DNA of 18,820 bases from Candidatus Desulfofervidaceae bacterium. GTDB taxonomy: Bacteria; Desulfobacterota; Desulfofervidia; Desulfofervidales; Desulfofervidaceae. Shown here piece by piece: positions 1,068-18,603 of the stretch. The position numbers and the translations under genes were made by a program. The notes beneath the pieces were generated by a model. It was not told the origin of the DNA and made no database searches. It was given only the letters and a program-made list of their open reading frames with translations. Each line of letters starts with the position of its first letter. Positions within the stretch are counted from its first letter, which is position 1. The stretch is from positions 1 through 18,820 of the forward strand of contig JAGHCL010000027.1 of assembly GCA_021160485.1 (NCBI GenBank). Direction: 5' to 3'.

Positions 1068-1538
1068 TTAAAACAACTTAAGTGGGTCCAATACAAGAAC
1101 AACCTTTCCTTGGCTAGTAACGGTTGCTCCTGAAAAGCCTTCAATATGAGCAAGAGGGCCGGTTAAAGATTTGATTACAAACTCACATTCTTTGTAAAAA
1201 CGGTCAACTTTTACAGCTATCCGGCGGTTATTAACATTGATAATAACTAGACTGATATCTTGAGAATCGCTAGTTTTACATAAAATGCTATCTAAAATAA
1301 CGCTTCCGCCTATCTTTTCAATATTGGTCTTAACCACATCCATACCCACACCACAACCAGAGACTTCGGTTACCTTTTGAGCTGTGGAAAAACCTGGAGT
1401 AAAAATAAGATTGCATACTGTTCGGTCATCTAACTGGTCCAGCTCTTTAGCATCTATTAATCCCTTTTCTATAGCTTTTGCCCGAATTTGCTCGGGGTTT
1501 ATTCCGCGACCATCATCTATAACTTCAATAATAACACT
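1068..1538 (-). pseudogene. cheA: cheA remnant (chemotaxis histidine kinase, 3' part with internal deletion)
   Basis: Reading the minus strand from about 1538 gives the CheA ATPase core: VIIEVIDDGRGINPEQIRAKA (G1 box region), then LIFTPGFSTAQKVTEVSG and GVGMDVVKTNIEKIGG, which are nearly diagnostic of CheA. Right after GGSVILDS the text jumps to the end of the CheW-like regulatory domain (FVIKSLTGPLAHIEGFSGATV, then VVLVLDPLKLF and stop). Roughly 60-70 residues normally present between them are missing. The P1 phosphotransfer, dimerisation and start of the ATPase domain are absent: a stop codon in frame at 1539-1541 marks the upstream break, where transposase-derived sequence begins. The arginine of the usual SGRGVGMD is cysteine. 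This cannot work as a CheA kinase and is best called a pseudogene. The short open frame from 1349 could at most yield a 93-residue peptide. Confidence 0.8.
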
Positions 1539-1926
1539 CTATCTTTTCCAAATGTTCGGTTACTTCTTGTTCAAATTCATTTTTTATATCTGGAGGAAAA
1601 ATGAAAGAAAGGGGATAAATAATAAATGGTTCATCTTTTACAGACCGTTTGGGATAGAAGCCTAGTTTCTCTAATACTTGAGAGTTATTCCTGAAAAAGG
1701 CTGCCAGCTTTGAACAAAAAGGCCTTTCTGTATCTCTCACTTGGGGCTTATATACACAGAACTTCCTCTCTGCTGTTTTTATATGAAATGGCTCATGGCC
1801 ATTACGATAGCCTGTATTTTCTCCTTTTCGTCTTTCATAATGCCCTCTACCCAAAAACTCAGTTACTTCCTGTTCTAATAATTCCTGAAGAATAATAGCA
1901 GCTCCTTTGAAAATTAGCACCCCCAT
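1525..1926 (-). pseudogene. Truncated IS256-family (mutator-type) transposase remnant
   Basis: A 133-codon frame whose first 88 residues (1926 down to about 1663) match the N-terminal DNA-binding region of IS256-type transposases: LLEQEVTEFLGRGHYERR, TGYRNGHEPFHIKTAE, then KPQVRDTERPFCSKL and NSQVLEKL. Intact family members are about 400 residues and carry a DDE catalytic core; none of it is present here. After residue 88 similarity weakens (a RSVKDEPF stretch may be a worn version of the following conserved block) and the frame ends at 1525, overlapping the start of the cheA remnant in another frame. No terminal inverted repeats or target-site duplication were recognised. It is a dead fragment, probably left by insertion into or beside cheA followed by deletion. 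Confidence 0.75.
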
Positions 1927-13819: not shown

Positions 13820-15538
13820 ATGGGAAATGAGCCTGTACCAAAAGATATTGCCTATATCCGAGGGGTATTAAAGCGGATAAATGCTCGGGGATATAGGGCC
13901 TATAAAGATTTAGAAGGTGTTTATCAATTTCCGTGGTTTCGGTTAGCTATTGACCATGTCCAGGCAGATCCATTTGCCACTCCTTCCCGCTTTACTATTA
14001 TCGTCTCTCTTGAAAAGACAGGCTTACCTGCCCATTTATGGGCAAACAAAAGGCGAATAGTTGCCCTAACAGATTTTCTCGCCCGCACTTTCCAAAAACA
14101 CCTTCATCCCTTCTCCAGACCATGTGGCACAGGCCATAGTGGTAAAATTGCCATTCAGGCTGGTAGCCAAGTCATTTTAGAAAGAAACAGCATTGCCATT
14201 AAACCACCATTTCTGGAAGTCCGTTTTACTGTAGGATTACCTGCCAGTGGACGCAGTATCCTAGGAGAAAAAGCAGAAAAAATCATCTGTGAATATCTCC
14301 CTTGCATCGCCGAGAAGTCTCTTTTATATCAGCATCTACCTTCTAAGACACTGGAGGAGCATGTTTTTAGCTATGAAGATCAGGAAATCCTTCGCTCTCA
14401 GCTAAAGCAGTTAAATTTAGTAGCCTTTATTCCCAACGGGGCTATCTTACCCCGTAAAAGTGGGGTAGAAGATACACCTTTACCTACGGCCATTCCTTTT
14501 ATGGCGCCTAAAGAAGCAGAAGTTACCGTAAAGCTACCCTATAAAGGTGAAATAAAGGGAATGGGCATCCCTGAAGGCATTACTCTTATTGTAGGTGGTG
14601 GTTTTCATGGTAAATCCACTTTACTTAAGGCCATTCAAGAAGGCATTTACAGCCATATTCCGGGGGATGGGCGTGAATATGTGGTAAGTCTGGCAGATAC
14701 AATCAAAATTAAGGCTGAAGACGGACGGCGCATTGAAAAAGTGGATATTTCCCCTTTTATAAATAACTTACCTTTCCAAAAAGATACTAGGACATTTTCT
14801 ACAGAAAATGCCAGTGGAAGCACCTCTCAGGCAGCCAATATTATGGAGGCCATTGAAGTAGGCACTCATTTGCTTTTGCTGGATGAAGACACTTCTGCTA
14901 CCAATTTTATGGTAAGAGATAAACGCATGCAGGCCTTGGTGAGCAAGGATGAAGAACCTATTACTCCCTTTCTGGATAGAGTAAAAGAACTTTACACATA
15001 CTTGGGCATTTCCACTATCCTGGTGATGGGAGGGTGTGGAGACTATCTGGACGTCGCTGACCATGTCATCATGATGTCTGCCTATAGGCCTTTAATTGTT
15101 ACTCAGAAAGCAAAGGAAATTGCCTCCAAGTATCAAACTGGAAGAAAGCCTGAAGCTGCTCAACCTCTCTACATACCCTCACCCCGTCGACCTGTGGGGG
15201 GGATAGATTCACGCCGGGGAGGAAAAGTCAAGATCACAGCCAAAGGTAATCAACATCTCATTTTGGGCAGGGAAACAGTAGATGTAAGCGCTAATGAACA
15301 GATAAAAGAAACCGGGCAACTTCTGGCTATCGGTCATGTCCTACACTATTATGCCTGGCATTATTTGCGCACTGCCTCTTCTTTAAAAGAAGGACTAGAA
15401 ATGGTTGAAAAAGACATAGATAAAAACGGGCTAGATGTCCTTTTACCTCACCGGGCTGGCAATTTGGCCAGACCACGTCTTCAAGAAATGGCCTTTACTT
15501 TAAACCGATTACGTTCTTTGAAAATACAGAGTAAATGA
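13820..15538 (+). CDS. Predicted ATPase of the ABC class (PF09818-type), function unknown
   Basis: A 572-residue soluble ATPase. N-terminal part (about 1-230): GYRAYKDLEG, AIDHVQADPFATPSRF, GTGHSGKI, VRFTVGLPASGRSILGEKA and the EDQEILRSQL stretch. The ATPase core has Walker A GGGFHGKST (259-267), a PGDGREYVV loop, KAEDGR and VDISPFINNLP, the TENASGSTSQAANI stretch standing where an ABC signature would be (329-341), Walker B LLLLDEDTSATNF (351-363), ITPFLDRVKELY and LVMGGCGDYLDVADHVI. These match the uncharacterised 'predicted ATPase of the ABC class' family end to end. No membrane helix or permease partner is present, so it is not a transporter subunit. The substrate process is unknown; nucleic-acid-related roles have been suggested only by analogy. 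The next gene starts 25 bases downstream. Confidence 0.93.
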   Translation: MGNEPVPKDIAYIRGVLKRINARGYRAYKDLEGVYQFPWFRLAIDHVQADPFATPSRFTIIVSLEKTGLPAHLWANKRRIVALTDFLARTFQKHLHPFSRPCGTGHSGKIAIQAGSQVILERNSIAIKPPFLEVRFTVGLPASGRSILGEKAEKIICEYLPCIAEKSLLYQHLPSKTLEEHVFSYEDQEILRSQLKQLNLVAFIPNGAILPRKSGVEDTPLPTAIPFMAPKEAEVTVKLPYKGEIKGMGIPEGITLIVGGGFHGKSTLLKAIQEGIYSHIPGDGREYVVSLADTIKIKAEDGRRIEKVDISPFINNLPFQKDTRTFSTENASGSTSQAANIMEAIEVGTHLLLLDEDTSATNFMVRDKRMQALVSKDEEPITPFLDRVKELYTYLGISTILVMGGCGDYLDVADHVIMMSAYRPLIVTQKAKEIASKYQTGRKPEAAQPLYIPSPRRPVGGIDSRRGGKVKITAKGNQHLILGRETVDVSANEQIKETGQLLAIGHVLHYYAWHYLRTASSLKEGLEMVEKDIDKNGLDVLLPHRAGNLARPRLQEMAFTLNRLRSLKIQSK

Positions 15539-15563: not shown

Positions 15564-16130
15564 TTGGCCAAACATATCCGGAAAGAAATAGAGGAAGAAA
15601 GGGAAATTATTACTCATGCCGGTGAGCTGCCAGAAGTAGCTCTTTATGCTAGCCTTTATTATCTCACCGAGGACCCTGAAGGACCTCATCTAGTCCTCAC
15701 TCCTGAGGAAGTTGCATTTCTCAAAGAAGGAGTAATAGAAGGGTATAAAAAGATTATTTTACGAGACTTAAATCTTAAAATGAGAGGGGAAAACATCTTT
15801 AGAGGAACAGAGCGCGCCATTATAAACTATAGAAGGCTAAAACGTTTTGCTAAAAAAGAGAGAATTGGTATTAACAATCTTATTCCCGAAATAGCCCAGG
15901 CTCTTATCACTTATATGGAAATCGAAATAAAAGACCCCTATTTAAAAACACACTCTCTACGCACTGTGAACTGTTCAAAGAAAGATTGGGAATGGTTTAT
16001 AAAGGAGCTAAATCTTACTCCATCTCACCTACTACCTGAGCCTGAGGCATTCTTCAAACGCACTCCCTTATCTTTTAAGGAAACTATTACCTTATTTAGA
16101 AAAAGAAAAAAGAAAAATGAAGGGCACTAA
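15564..16130 (+). CDS. Unrecognised 188-residue protein, partner of the ABC-class ATPase by position
   Basis: I do not recognise a family. The gene begins at TTG with a strong AAGGAG site, 25 bases after the ATPase stop, so the two are probably co-transcribed. The product is soluble and highly charged with no signal peptide or membrane helix. The N terminus is mixed acidic and basic (HIRKEIEEEREII), followed by a short hydrophobic segment (VALYASLYYL), a mainly helical middle (FLKEGVIEGYKKIILRDLNL, TERAIINYRRLKRFAKKERI) and a tryptophan pair (DWEWF). The tail is very basic (LFRKRKKKNEGH). The basic helix and tail would suit nucleic-acid or acidic-protein contact, but that is only compositional. 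Codon use and AT content resemble its neighbours, so it looks like a real gene. Confidence 0.75.
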   Translation: MAKHIRKEIEEEREIITHAGELPEVALYASLYYLTEDPEGPHLVLTPEEVAFLKEGVIEGYKKIILRDLNLKMRGENIFRGTERAIINYRRLKRFAKKERIGINNLIPEIAQALITYMEIEIKDPYLKTHSLRTVNCSKKDWEWFIKELNLTPSHLLPEPEAFFKRTPLSFKETITLFRKRKKKNEGH

Positions 16131-16219: not shown

Positions 16220-16750
16220 ATGGAATTTTCTAAGTATGTATTTGACAAACGGTTTTCCCCTGAAAAGAATCTCATCTCTGTCTCTGGTGCTCTAGTCTCT
16301 TTACATTGCCATCACTTTAATTGTGGTCTTTTAAAGGCCATTGAAGAATTAAAGGGTATTGACGGGTTAACTCTGTTTGTCAAAACCACAGAAGAAGTCT
16401 ATCGGCATTTTTTTTCTGATTATTTAAAGCAACACCCGGAGCTTACAACTCCGGCAGATAAGTTGCAGGCAGCTTCGGAAATGTATTATGCTTTTGGATT
16501 TGGAAAGTTAAACCTGAGTAATCTAAACGAACAGGGTGGAACAGCAAAGGCTACTTCTTCCTATTATGTCACCGCCTGGTTAGCTAAATATGGACGTCGT
16601 CATACCCCGGTATGTTATTTTACTTGTGGATTCATTGCGGGAGTTTTAGAAAGTGTATTTACCAAACCCATCGGTAGTTATAAGGTCAAGGAGACAAAGT
16701 GTTTAATTACAGGAAGTGATTTCTGCGAATTTGAGGTAAAGGCAATTTAA
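16220..16750 (+). CDS. V4R-like small-molecule-binding protein 1
   Basis: A 176-residue soluble protein. Its last third fits the V4R (4-vinyl reductase-type) domain: a CGFIAGVLESVF helix, then KVKETKCLITGSDFCEFEV (residues 155-173) with the usual pattern of Cys, Gly-Asp-like turn, Cys-x-Phe. V4R domains are predicted to bind small organic ligands and occur beside the sensor domain of XylR/DmpR-type regulators and in bacteriochlorophyll and hydrocarbon pathways. Cysteines and histidines cluster: HCHHFNC at 29-35, C132 and C136, C161 and C169, so a metal or redox site is possible but unproven. The N-terminal half (LISVSGALVSLHCHHFN) I cannot assign. The next gene follows one base after its stop and is also V4R-like. 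The start codon lacks a ribosome site and may be leaderless. Confidence 0.72.
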   Translation: MEFSKYVFDKRFSPEKNLISVSGALVSLHCHHFNCGLLKAIEELKGIDGLTLFVKTTEEVYRHFFSDYLKQHPELTTPADKLQAASEMYYAFGFGKLNLSNLNEQGGTAKATSSYYVTAWLAKYGRRHTPVCYFTCGFIAGVLESVFTKPIGSYKVKETKCLITGSDFCEFEVKAI

Positions 16751-16751
16751 A

Positions 16752-17357
16752 ATGGCCATAGATGTAAAAAAGATAATTTCTGTTTATTCAATCGGAGAGT
16801 TACCCAGGGACAATAAAGGAATTATCGGCGTATTTGGCATTTATGCTGCTTACAATTACAACGAATTTTACTATCGCATTGTGTCTAAGACCTTAACTCA
16901 GGCTAGTAAAGAAGAAGCAGAAAAGGTTGAAAACCAACTTTATCAAGCCGTTCTTGATTGTGCCTATTACACTTTTCACGGTGCTCGCACTTCAATGTTA
17001 TGGCGAGAAATTGTGGAGCCCATGGTTGAAACTCCTGAGGATGAAGTTCATGCTCTTGTTGCTTTTACTAATGTTTTTGGAATTGGTTATCTAGAAGTAG
17101 TAGAATTGGTGCCTGGTGAAAAACTGGTTACCCGTGTTTACAATGCCTATGATCCAGGTAGATATCTAGAGGAATATGGACCGCAACCTCATGGACGATG
17201 TTATATGTTCAGAGCCTGCACAGCCAGTTATATGGATTTGGTATATGGCCCTCCTTTCCCTAACGGAATGGGAACATTTAAATGCAAAGAAGTAAAATGC
17301 CGCAGTATGGGAGATAAATACTGTGAGTTTGTAGCTACCAAAAACCAGGATGAATAA
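16752..17357 (+). CDS. V4R-like small-molecule-binding protein 2
   Basis: A 201-residue soluble protein beginning one base after the stop of the first V4R-like gene. The C-terminal half again fits a V4R domain: GRCYMFRACTASYMDLVYG, GTFKCKEVKCRSMGDKYCEFVA (in two stretches, residues 148-195), with Cys150, Cys156, Cys178, Cys183 and Cys191. The ending GDKYCEF is a close match to the family signature. The N-terminal half contains VLDCAYYTFHGARTSML and EIVEPMVETPEDEVHALVAF and is not recognised. It is related in layout but not nearly identical to the preceding protein, so the pair may be an old duplication or two subunits of one complex. The last eight bases overlap the histidine kinase gene, which implies linked function in sensing. 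Confidence 0.72.
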   Translation: MAIDVKKIISVYSIGELPRDNKGIIGVFGIYAAYNYNEFYYRIVSKTLTQASKEEAEKVENQLYQAVLDCAYYTFHGARTSMLWREIVEPMVETPEDEVHALVAFTNVFGIGYLEVVELVPGEKLVTRVYNAYDPGRYLEEYGPQPHGRCYMFRACTASYMDLVYGPPFPNGMGTFKCKEVKCRSMGDKYCEFVATKNQDE

Positions 17358-18603
17358 TTCACAAGTGAATCTTTGTAAAAACGATGTTCAATCAGCATTA
17401 GAAGTAGCAGCAGAACAGATATTAGCTGCCATTCCCAATGCTGTCTTTGCCACTGATAAAAATATGCGTATTATTTATTTTAACAAAATAGCTGAAAAAA
17501 TAACAGGCTTTAAGGAAAAAGAAGCTATTGGTATGTATTGCCGAGATGTCTTTAAAACTGATTTGTGTGGATACCAATGTTTAATTGAACGGGCCTTTGA
17601 ATCTGGTAAAAATATATTTCATGTAGAGGCAGAACTAACTGATGCAGAAGGGGAAAAGATACCTGTGCTTACCAATGCCTCTGTTCTACGGGACAAATCC
17701 GGCAGAATTACCGGTTATCTGGTTGTTTTTCAAGACATTTCTGACATAAAAAAGACTGTAGAAGAACTTCGTTTAGCCAAACGGATGTTGGTAGAAAAAA
17801 ACCGCTCTTTACGTTTGGCCTATAAAGAGCTCGAATTAACTCAACGCCAGTTATTACAGGCACAAAAAATGGAGTCTTTAGGTCGGTTGGCAGGAGGATT
17901 TGCCCACAATTTTAACAATATTCTGTGTGTCATTTTGGGATATGTAAGTCTGCTTAAAAAGCAATTGAGTTATGACAAGTCTATTAACACATACATAGAT
18001 ATTATAGAAAAATCCACTCTCAAGGCAGCAGATTTGACCCAAAAAGTGCTTGCCTTTGCCCAAGGGGGAAAATACAAAATAGAACTAGTGGATGTTAACA
18101 AAATTATAATAAGATTGGTCTCAGTATTAAAAGAAACTTTAGCAGAAAACATTCAAATAGATTTAGAGCTTTCTCCAGAAATACTGCCAGTAGAAGCAGA
18201 TGCCTCCCAAATTTATCATGCGTTACTTAATTTGTGTATTAATGCCCGGGATGCTATGCCAGAAGGAGGTAAAGTCAAAATTAAAACAGAACGTGTAAAA
18301 ATACCTTCCCAAAAGTCTATTTCAGCATCAAAAATAAACCCTGGGCATTATGTATTGATAACTGTTTCAGATACAGGACCTGGAATTAAGCCTGAAATCC
18401 AAGATAAAATCTTTGAACCTTTTTTTACTACTAAAGGCCCCGATAAAGGCACTGGTCTTGGACTGGCTGTGGTTTATGGGATTGTAAAAGGGCACCATGG
18501 ACATATAAAACTAGAAAGCACTCCTGGCAAAGGGACTAATTTCTATATTTATCTTCCAGTAAAAGAGGTCTTTTTACAGTCAAAACTTCCCTTTAACGTT
18601 TAG
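17350..18603 (+). CDS. Soluble PAS-domain sensor histidine kinase
   Basis: A 417-residue kinase. PAS domain at about 20-132 ([39 protein letters not shown]) containing a cysteine cluster C64, C73 and C77. A coiled-coil linker follows (133-172). Then HisKA with [19 protein letters not shown], phosphoacceptor His186, where the residue after the histidine is Asn rather than the usual Asp. The HATPase domain has the N box [15 protein letters not shown]1 VSDTGPGI, F box FEPFFTTK, and G2 [18 protein letters not shown]. No membrane helix or signal peptide, so it senses inside the cell. There is no receiver domain and no response regulator next door, so its partner is encoded elsewhere. It overlaps the second V4R-like gene by eight bases, suggesting the V4R proteins feed into it. 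Confidence 0.93.

Follow-up and report, generated by a model that had tools for sequence, protein, structure and literature searches.

V4R sensing coupled to a PAS domain and a histidine kinase is already known within a single sensor, PcrS of Aromatoleum aromaticum, which contains a V4R domain and serves as the sensor in the p-cresol two-component system PcrSR (as far as the consulted part of PMC10715001 describes it). Side-by-side V4R proteins are known as well: in the sections consulted of PMC10151467, bilin gene clusters carry two V4R proteins each, from two V4R clades that travel together in pre-PcyA clusters and in slr0144-slr0149 of Synechocystis. A V4R domain is also joined to a PAS-type domain (PYP) in the signalling proteins called PYP-V4R fusions (available portion of PMC12826048). 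The sensor domains of MopR, PoxR and DmpR belong to sigma54 activators made of one polypeptide, and in the eukaryotic TRAPP complexes paralogous Bet3-Trs subunits of the same superfold pair with each other in solved structures. To our knowledge, there are few accounts of histidine kinases driven by soluble receptor subunits on separate polypeptides, and most V4R proteins have no settled role. Here we analysed a locus in which two free-standing V4R proteins, V1 and V2, are encoded together with a soluble PAS kinase. Because this pair keeps together across many genomes and is coupled there to a PAS kinase lacking any apparent membrane segment, our results, on sequence grounds, are best explained by a split sensory system.

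The locus and its three genes

The analysed stretch of DNA (the window) makes up an entire contig of 18820 bases, which belongs to a genome of 1.55 Mb that is 81% complete. All three genes lie on the plus strand. V1, a V4R protein of 176 aa (16220..16750), is followed after one base by V2, a V4R-fold protein of 201 aa (16752..17357), and the gene for a soluble PAS histidine kinase of 417 aa (17350..18603) overlaps that of V2 by eight bases. A first-pass annotation, made from the sequence alone, had described two adjacent, non-identical V4R-like proteins followed by a PAS kinase, and coordinates, gap, overlap and phmmer comparison confirm this, V1 and V2 being homologous yet distinct (E 6e-9 and 8e-9). 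V1 matches the Pfam V4R model (PF02830) at E 7e-12 and 45.7 bits, above the gathering score of 31 bits; V2 (E 1e-5, 25.9 bits) lies below that score and is termed V4R-like on its fold and its profile similarity to MopR only. Neither V1 nor V2 contains an AAA+ match, which sets both apart from sigma54 activators.

The kinase matches PAS_9 (1e-17), HATPase_c (7e-26, above the Pfam cut-off) and HisKA at E 1e-5 and 26.0 bits, 0.9 bits below the cut-off of 26.9. Its H186 lies in columns that are at least 90% conserved across 13 kinases of the window's clade (clade A, below). With an HATPase_c domain and a phosphoacceptor-histidine region, the protein fits a two-component histidine kinase whose catalysis is predicted. 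Its PAS1 domain (residues 19-140; 17404..17769, plus strand), common to the partner ORFs described below, is a candidate docking site for V1 and V2. No 19-residue stretch of V1, V2 or the kinase has a Kyte-Doolittle mean above 1.63, so that no membrane segment is apparent in any of the three proteins, and no response regulator lies 3' of the kinase in the window, where the contig ends at 18820; the annotation had remarked on both points.

Directly upstream of V1 lies a gene for a DUF7826 protein (15564-16130), which adjoins an ABC-class ATPase gene (13820-15538) and is not found in the largest clusters of neighbours that recur at other loci. The minus strand carries a partial CheW-like ORF and a Mutator-family transposase fragment (1068-1349 and 1525-1926). 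Promoter-like sites numbered 17, against a shuffled mean of 9.5, in a consensus scan that we did not use as evidence.

Conservation of the set in two clades

Among 297 genomes of the phylum, V2 was found in 11 and V1 (>200 bits) in the same 11, with a broken V1 in one more (G038). The kinase adjoins the pair in eight of the 11; in one the contig ends inside V2 (L007), and two have no kinase in the stretch (L012 and L013). A second sample, in which 84,980 species are represented by a single genome each, was scanned with two V2 patterns, which favour sequences resembling the query alignment, and yielded 55 loci; the two counts are not independent, as some genomes occur in both (e.g., G074, which is L015). 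After leaving out one locus that ends inside V2 (L025) and one that ends soon after it (L058), we found a kinase-type ORF just 3' of V2 in 52 of 53 evaluable loci (exception, L019), more than chance would give. The first-pass annotation had proposed such a check on whether the three genes stay together in other genomes. These 52 partner ORFs include incomplete ones: several run off the contig, that of L051 is short (428 aa) and that of L020 consists of PAS domains only. V1 lies 5' of V2 in 51 of 53 loci, a count from which L021 and L065 are excluded as their sequence starts too near V2. It is missing from L063 and L066, which are sisters in the V2 tree and have both V2 and the kinase, and is therefore not strictly required. 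Broken frames were counted as present, unmended (V2 of L027 and V1 of L039, each in two ORFs).

Loci with the V1-V2 pair and without the kinase are rare. They comprise L019 and the divergent pairs of L012 and L013, which are followed by a class V aminotransferase (by Pfam for L013, by membership of the same cluster for L012). These divergent pairs span 5799-8493 of L100 and 6263-8670 of L101; in L100 a small protein, presumably roadblock/LC7-like, sits between pair and aminotransferase. Within the window's own family, a stop interrupts V1 in G038, and the broken gene continues into what is left of a kinase linker and H-box (L081, approximately 1324-1806, minus strand); no V2 match was found in this genome. 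The pattern fits joint decay of one functional set.

The 55 loci form two clades. The window belongs to clade A (L015-L028; 14 loci), whose V2 proteins are 60-81% identical to its own; the nearest named relative is L015, Candidatus Desulfofervidaceae bacterium (81%), and some records in this clade carry the label Nitrospirota. Clade B (L029-L069; 41 loci) comes mostly from Desulfobacterales-type genomes, with V2 identities to the window of 37-43%. Clade A groups in both trees (100 for V2, 84 for V1), as does clade B (99 in V1, and 85 in V2, where it is drawn as open). When 88 rows are placed in one joint tree, V1 comes out as a single group (SH-aLRT 91), and V2 needs two label changes, two long-branch rows of other V4R proteins lying among its deep branches. 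The set spans several groups of mostly uncultured bacteria; one clade B set comes from Desulfatitalea alkaliphila M08but (L052), a named strain, which makes the idea testable outside metagenomes.

The kinases of the two clades differ in their catalytic halves. In clade A, HisKA was detected in 12, HATPase_c in 10 and a receiver domain in 7 of 13 kinases; in clade B, HisKA_3 and HATPase_c were each detected in 34 of 35, the scan covering 35 of the 40 kinases found, with five omitted that run off contigs. No V4R match (E 0.001) was seen in any of these kinases or in that of the window. What the HisKA and HisKA_3 kinases have in common is PAS1: the window's domain has a match in each of the 52 partner ORFs, with scores of 60 to 184 bits, and the match begins 51-336 nt beyond the end of V2. 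Used as a query in 14 genomes, it found the V4R-linked kinase as the best match in 7 of the 8 genomes having one. In these seven the linked match scores at least 111 bits (111-188 without the self match) and any other PAS domain at most 97 bits; in the eighth (G113) the linked match is partial (65 bits) and another PAS domain scores 86. According to the first-pass annotation, it would speak against a shared system if the pair regularly occurred without the kinase or the kinase regularly beside unrelated genes; on both counts the loci mostly favour a shared system, with L019, L012, L013 and G113 as exceptions. We infer from these comparisons that PAS1 may be where the V1/V2 pair acts.

In clade B kinases a Cys-rich region lies between the end of V2 and PAS1 (e.g., L048 10572-10830), with seven cysteines that are invariant or nearly so across 35 kinases; in the one clade B kinase scanned, it resembles a two-CW domain model, below the cut-off.

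Between the clades, mean identity is 0.42 for PAS1, 0.37 for V2 and 0.32 for V1. Distances among the three are correlated (Mantel r 0.86-0.91 in clade A and 0.48-0.72 in clade B; none of 999 shuffles reached such values), and the distances of V2 also agree with those of its neighbours (regulator, 0.71; CobW, 0.83; MtrH, 0.48). Since the neighbours agree too, we attribute the correlation to shared descent and discarded it as a sign of specific co-evolution of V1, V2 and PAS1.

Ligand residues, genomic setting and rival readings

The predicted models of V1 and V2 are complete sensor domains of the MopR/PoxR type with a V4R fold, and their nearest folds are those of ligand sensors. Residues were counted in 35 V1 proteins (32 of 51 named, plus the window, L012 and L013) and 37 V2 proteins (34 of 55 named, plus the same three). 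As in phenol sensors, both have a Cys3-Glu zinc site (C132, E158, C161 and C169 in V1; C150, E180, C183 and C191 in V2), each ligand being kept in 34-35 of 35 V1 and 36 of 37 V2 sequences. V1 has an HCHH motif (H29-C30-H31-H32) with an invariant His-Cys part, and V2 carries an invariant C70. The residues that anchor phenol are missing. At the equivalent of MopR His106 (position 106), V2 has Ala (21), Thr (14), Ser (1) or Phe (1), and at that of Trp134 (position 129) Val (26) or Ala (11; n = 37 for both). In V1 the Trp134 equivalent (position 111; n = 35), one column past the aligned stretch, is Ser (22), Ala (11), Gly (1) or Leu (1); the His position falls outside the alignment, and the phenol-pair result for V1 concerns the Trp position only.

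The clade B kinase is followed by a gene for a LuxR-type response regulator (Response_reg and GerE) in 33 of 41 loci, that is, in all 33 where it could be visible, as the other eight have less than 2.4 kb after V2 or no kinase called. MtrH-type, MtaA/UroD-type, corrinoid-protein and RACo genes, identified from one annotated representative of each cluster, occur in 24 of 41 loci, with all four types in 14. Where at least 5.5 kb follows V2, one or more genes of this methyltransferase set is present in 20 of 22 loci (exceptions, L061 and L063). CobW-type GTPases (18 of 41) and CobA-type adenosyltransferases (12 of 41) are further neighbours. Of the 297 genomes, 15 have strong MtrH matches (E <1e-38). 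Three of the four clade B genomes in that sample are among them, each with the match 3-5 kb from the pair on one contig. The nearest solved structure of the MtrH-type protein is a methylcorrinoid:tetrahydrofolate methyltransferase. That of the UroD-type protein is a methylcobalamin:CoM methyltransferase, for which reason O-demethylation was set aside as the clade B substrate. The gene set resembles the Mto and Cdm systems, as these are described in the consulted parts of PMC8630106 and PMC13222342. In L055 (13630-15534) and seven other clade B loci, the system adjoins a gene for a protein of about 630 aa that matched nothing in Pfam or NCBIfam at the chosen thresholds.

At the 14 clade A loci neither the LuxR regulator cluster nor the methyltransferase clusters were found, and no recurrent neighbour names a target. 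Methyltransferase control by the window's set is not supported, as no MtrH match was found in its genome or in four other clade A genomes (G074, G017, G055 and G066); nor is a LuxR-type partner in the window's genome, no GerE-type regulator being found there (81% complete) or in G074 (100% complete). G000 has 35 receiver matches. The earlier proposal that the window's output is encoded elsewhere is refined by the relatives: those of clade B have an adjacent regulator and a corrinoid methyltransferase setting, which were not seen in the window's clade.

Could V1 and V2 bind phenols or other aromatics as DmpR and MopR do, and switch on an aromatic degradation pathway? The fold match to MopR/PoxR and the p-cresol sensor PcrS speak for such a ligand, which the first-pass annotation had named as a possibility. 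The loss of both anchoring residues in V2 and of the Trp in V1 weakens the idea of an aromatic held as in DmpR, and no aromatic pathway appears in the 11 annotated recurrent neighbour clusters; we regard this reading as highly improbable. The zinc ligands and the conserved His-Cys motif would also be compatible with a redox or metal sensor, in which oxidation or metal would act on the HCHH motif of V1, on the Cys-rich V4R sites and, in clade B, on the Cys-rich N-terminus of the kinase. V1 resembles the methanogen regulator MsvR weakly (E 4e-6, far under that model's cut-off), and three V4R cysteines of MsvR are implicated in redox-dependent DNA binding (consulted part of PMC3729527); the two-CW-like N-terminus of the clade B kinase scanned points the same way. 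Yet in MopR-type sensors this Cys3-Glu site is assigned a role in maintaining structural integrity (in the text consulted of PMC10715001), and the PAS1 cysteines at the C73 and C77 positions are lost in some clade B kinases, e.g., in L065, which leaves redox or metal sensing quite doubtful.

A different possibility is that V1 and V2 are enzymes or cofactor carriers, merely co-regulated with a kinase that senses alone through its PAS domain. A catalytic role is conceivable for the invariant His-Cys motif in V1, two divergent pairs stand beside a class V aminotransferase without a kinase, and V4R proteins occur in the bilin clusters mentioned above. Against this, an ORF carrying the same PAS1 is linked to the pair at 52 of 53 loci, with kinases of both types and with a regulator in clade B, and the folds are closest to ligand sensors, so that we think this account unlikely. 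Finally, V1 and V2 may together make up a heterodimeric receptor that recognises a tetrapyrrole-type cofactor (a corrinoid, a methyl-corrinoid or haem) or the state of such a cofactor; the invariant His-Cys of V1 would then lie near the ligand or subunit interface, and the receptor would report in trans to PAS1 of interchangeable kinases. We put this forward as a decidedly speculative variant; were it true, a modular receptor pair would have been joined to kinases of two types and, within clade B, would time corrinoid methyl transfer.

A proposed split sensory system and its relation to known systems

The explanation that we consider probable is that V1 and V2 are receptor subunits signalling in trans to PAS1 of the co-encoded kinase, and from there to a response regulator. 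From the computed folds, linkage, shared PAS1, two kinase types and neighbours, we infer contact, signal direction, ligand and target genes as follows. V1 and V2 would be cytosolic subunits acting together, probably as a heterodimer of phenol-sensor-like V4R domains, a pairing suggested by the retention of both in most lineages and by the known pairing of paralogues in the same superfold. They would bind a small molecule or cofactor, candidates being a methyl donor, a corrinoid or the redox state of a corrinoid. The pair would touch PAS1, ligand binding would alter kinase activity, and the kinase histidine would pass phosphate to a response regulator. In clade B this would be the adjacent LuxR-type protein, with the neighbouring corrinoid-dependent methyltransferase operon as the most likely target; in clade A, including the window, the regulator may be encoded elsewhere or the receiver fused to the kinase. 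Of the first-pass proposal, the split system with a free-standing pair linked to a PAS kinase is supported, and the DmpR-like aromatic ligand is not. With the clade B setting there is something definite to aim at: how corrinoid methyltransferase systems are regulated, a subject described as "largely unexplored" in a 2026 paper on a system of this kind (PMC13222342, part consulted).

Among the matches listed from the open-licence PMC literature (titles and abstract openings), the V1/V2/kinase triplet is not described, and no precedent appears there for a free-standing V4R pair wired to a kinase, which suggests that this arrangement may be new. Each known system shares part of it. TRAPP Bet3-Trs heterodimers show how paralogous subunits of this superfold pair, but serve eukaryotic trafficking and have no kinase. 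The bilin clusters, compared by description only, have two V4R clades together with an Fe-S protein, a globin and a bilin reductase where our loci have a kinase; these three and haem oxygenase are absent from the 11 annotated recurrent clusters, a subset of the neighbours. PYP-V4R fusions are single proteins, described in the consulted part of PMC12826048 as lacking an apparent relay domain. With MopR, PoxR and DmpR, V1 and V2 have the full-length sensor fold and the Cys3-Glu zinc ligands in common, but they are free-standing and without the phenol-anchoring residues. PcrS likewise joins V4R sensing to a PAS domain and a histidine kinase, but its V4R domain lies inside the sensor polypeptide and keeps the His/Trp pair, whereas the loci described here encode two separate V4R proteins without that pair.
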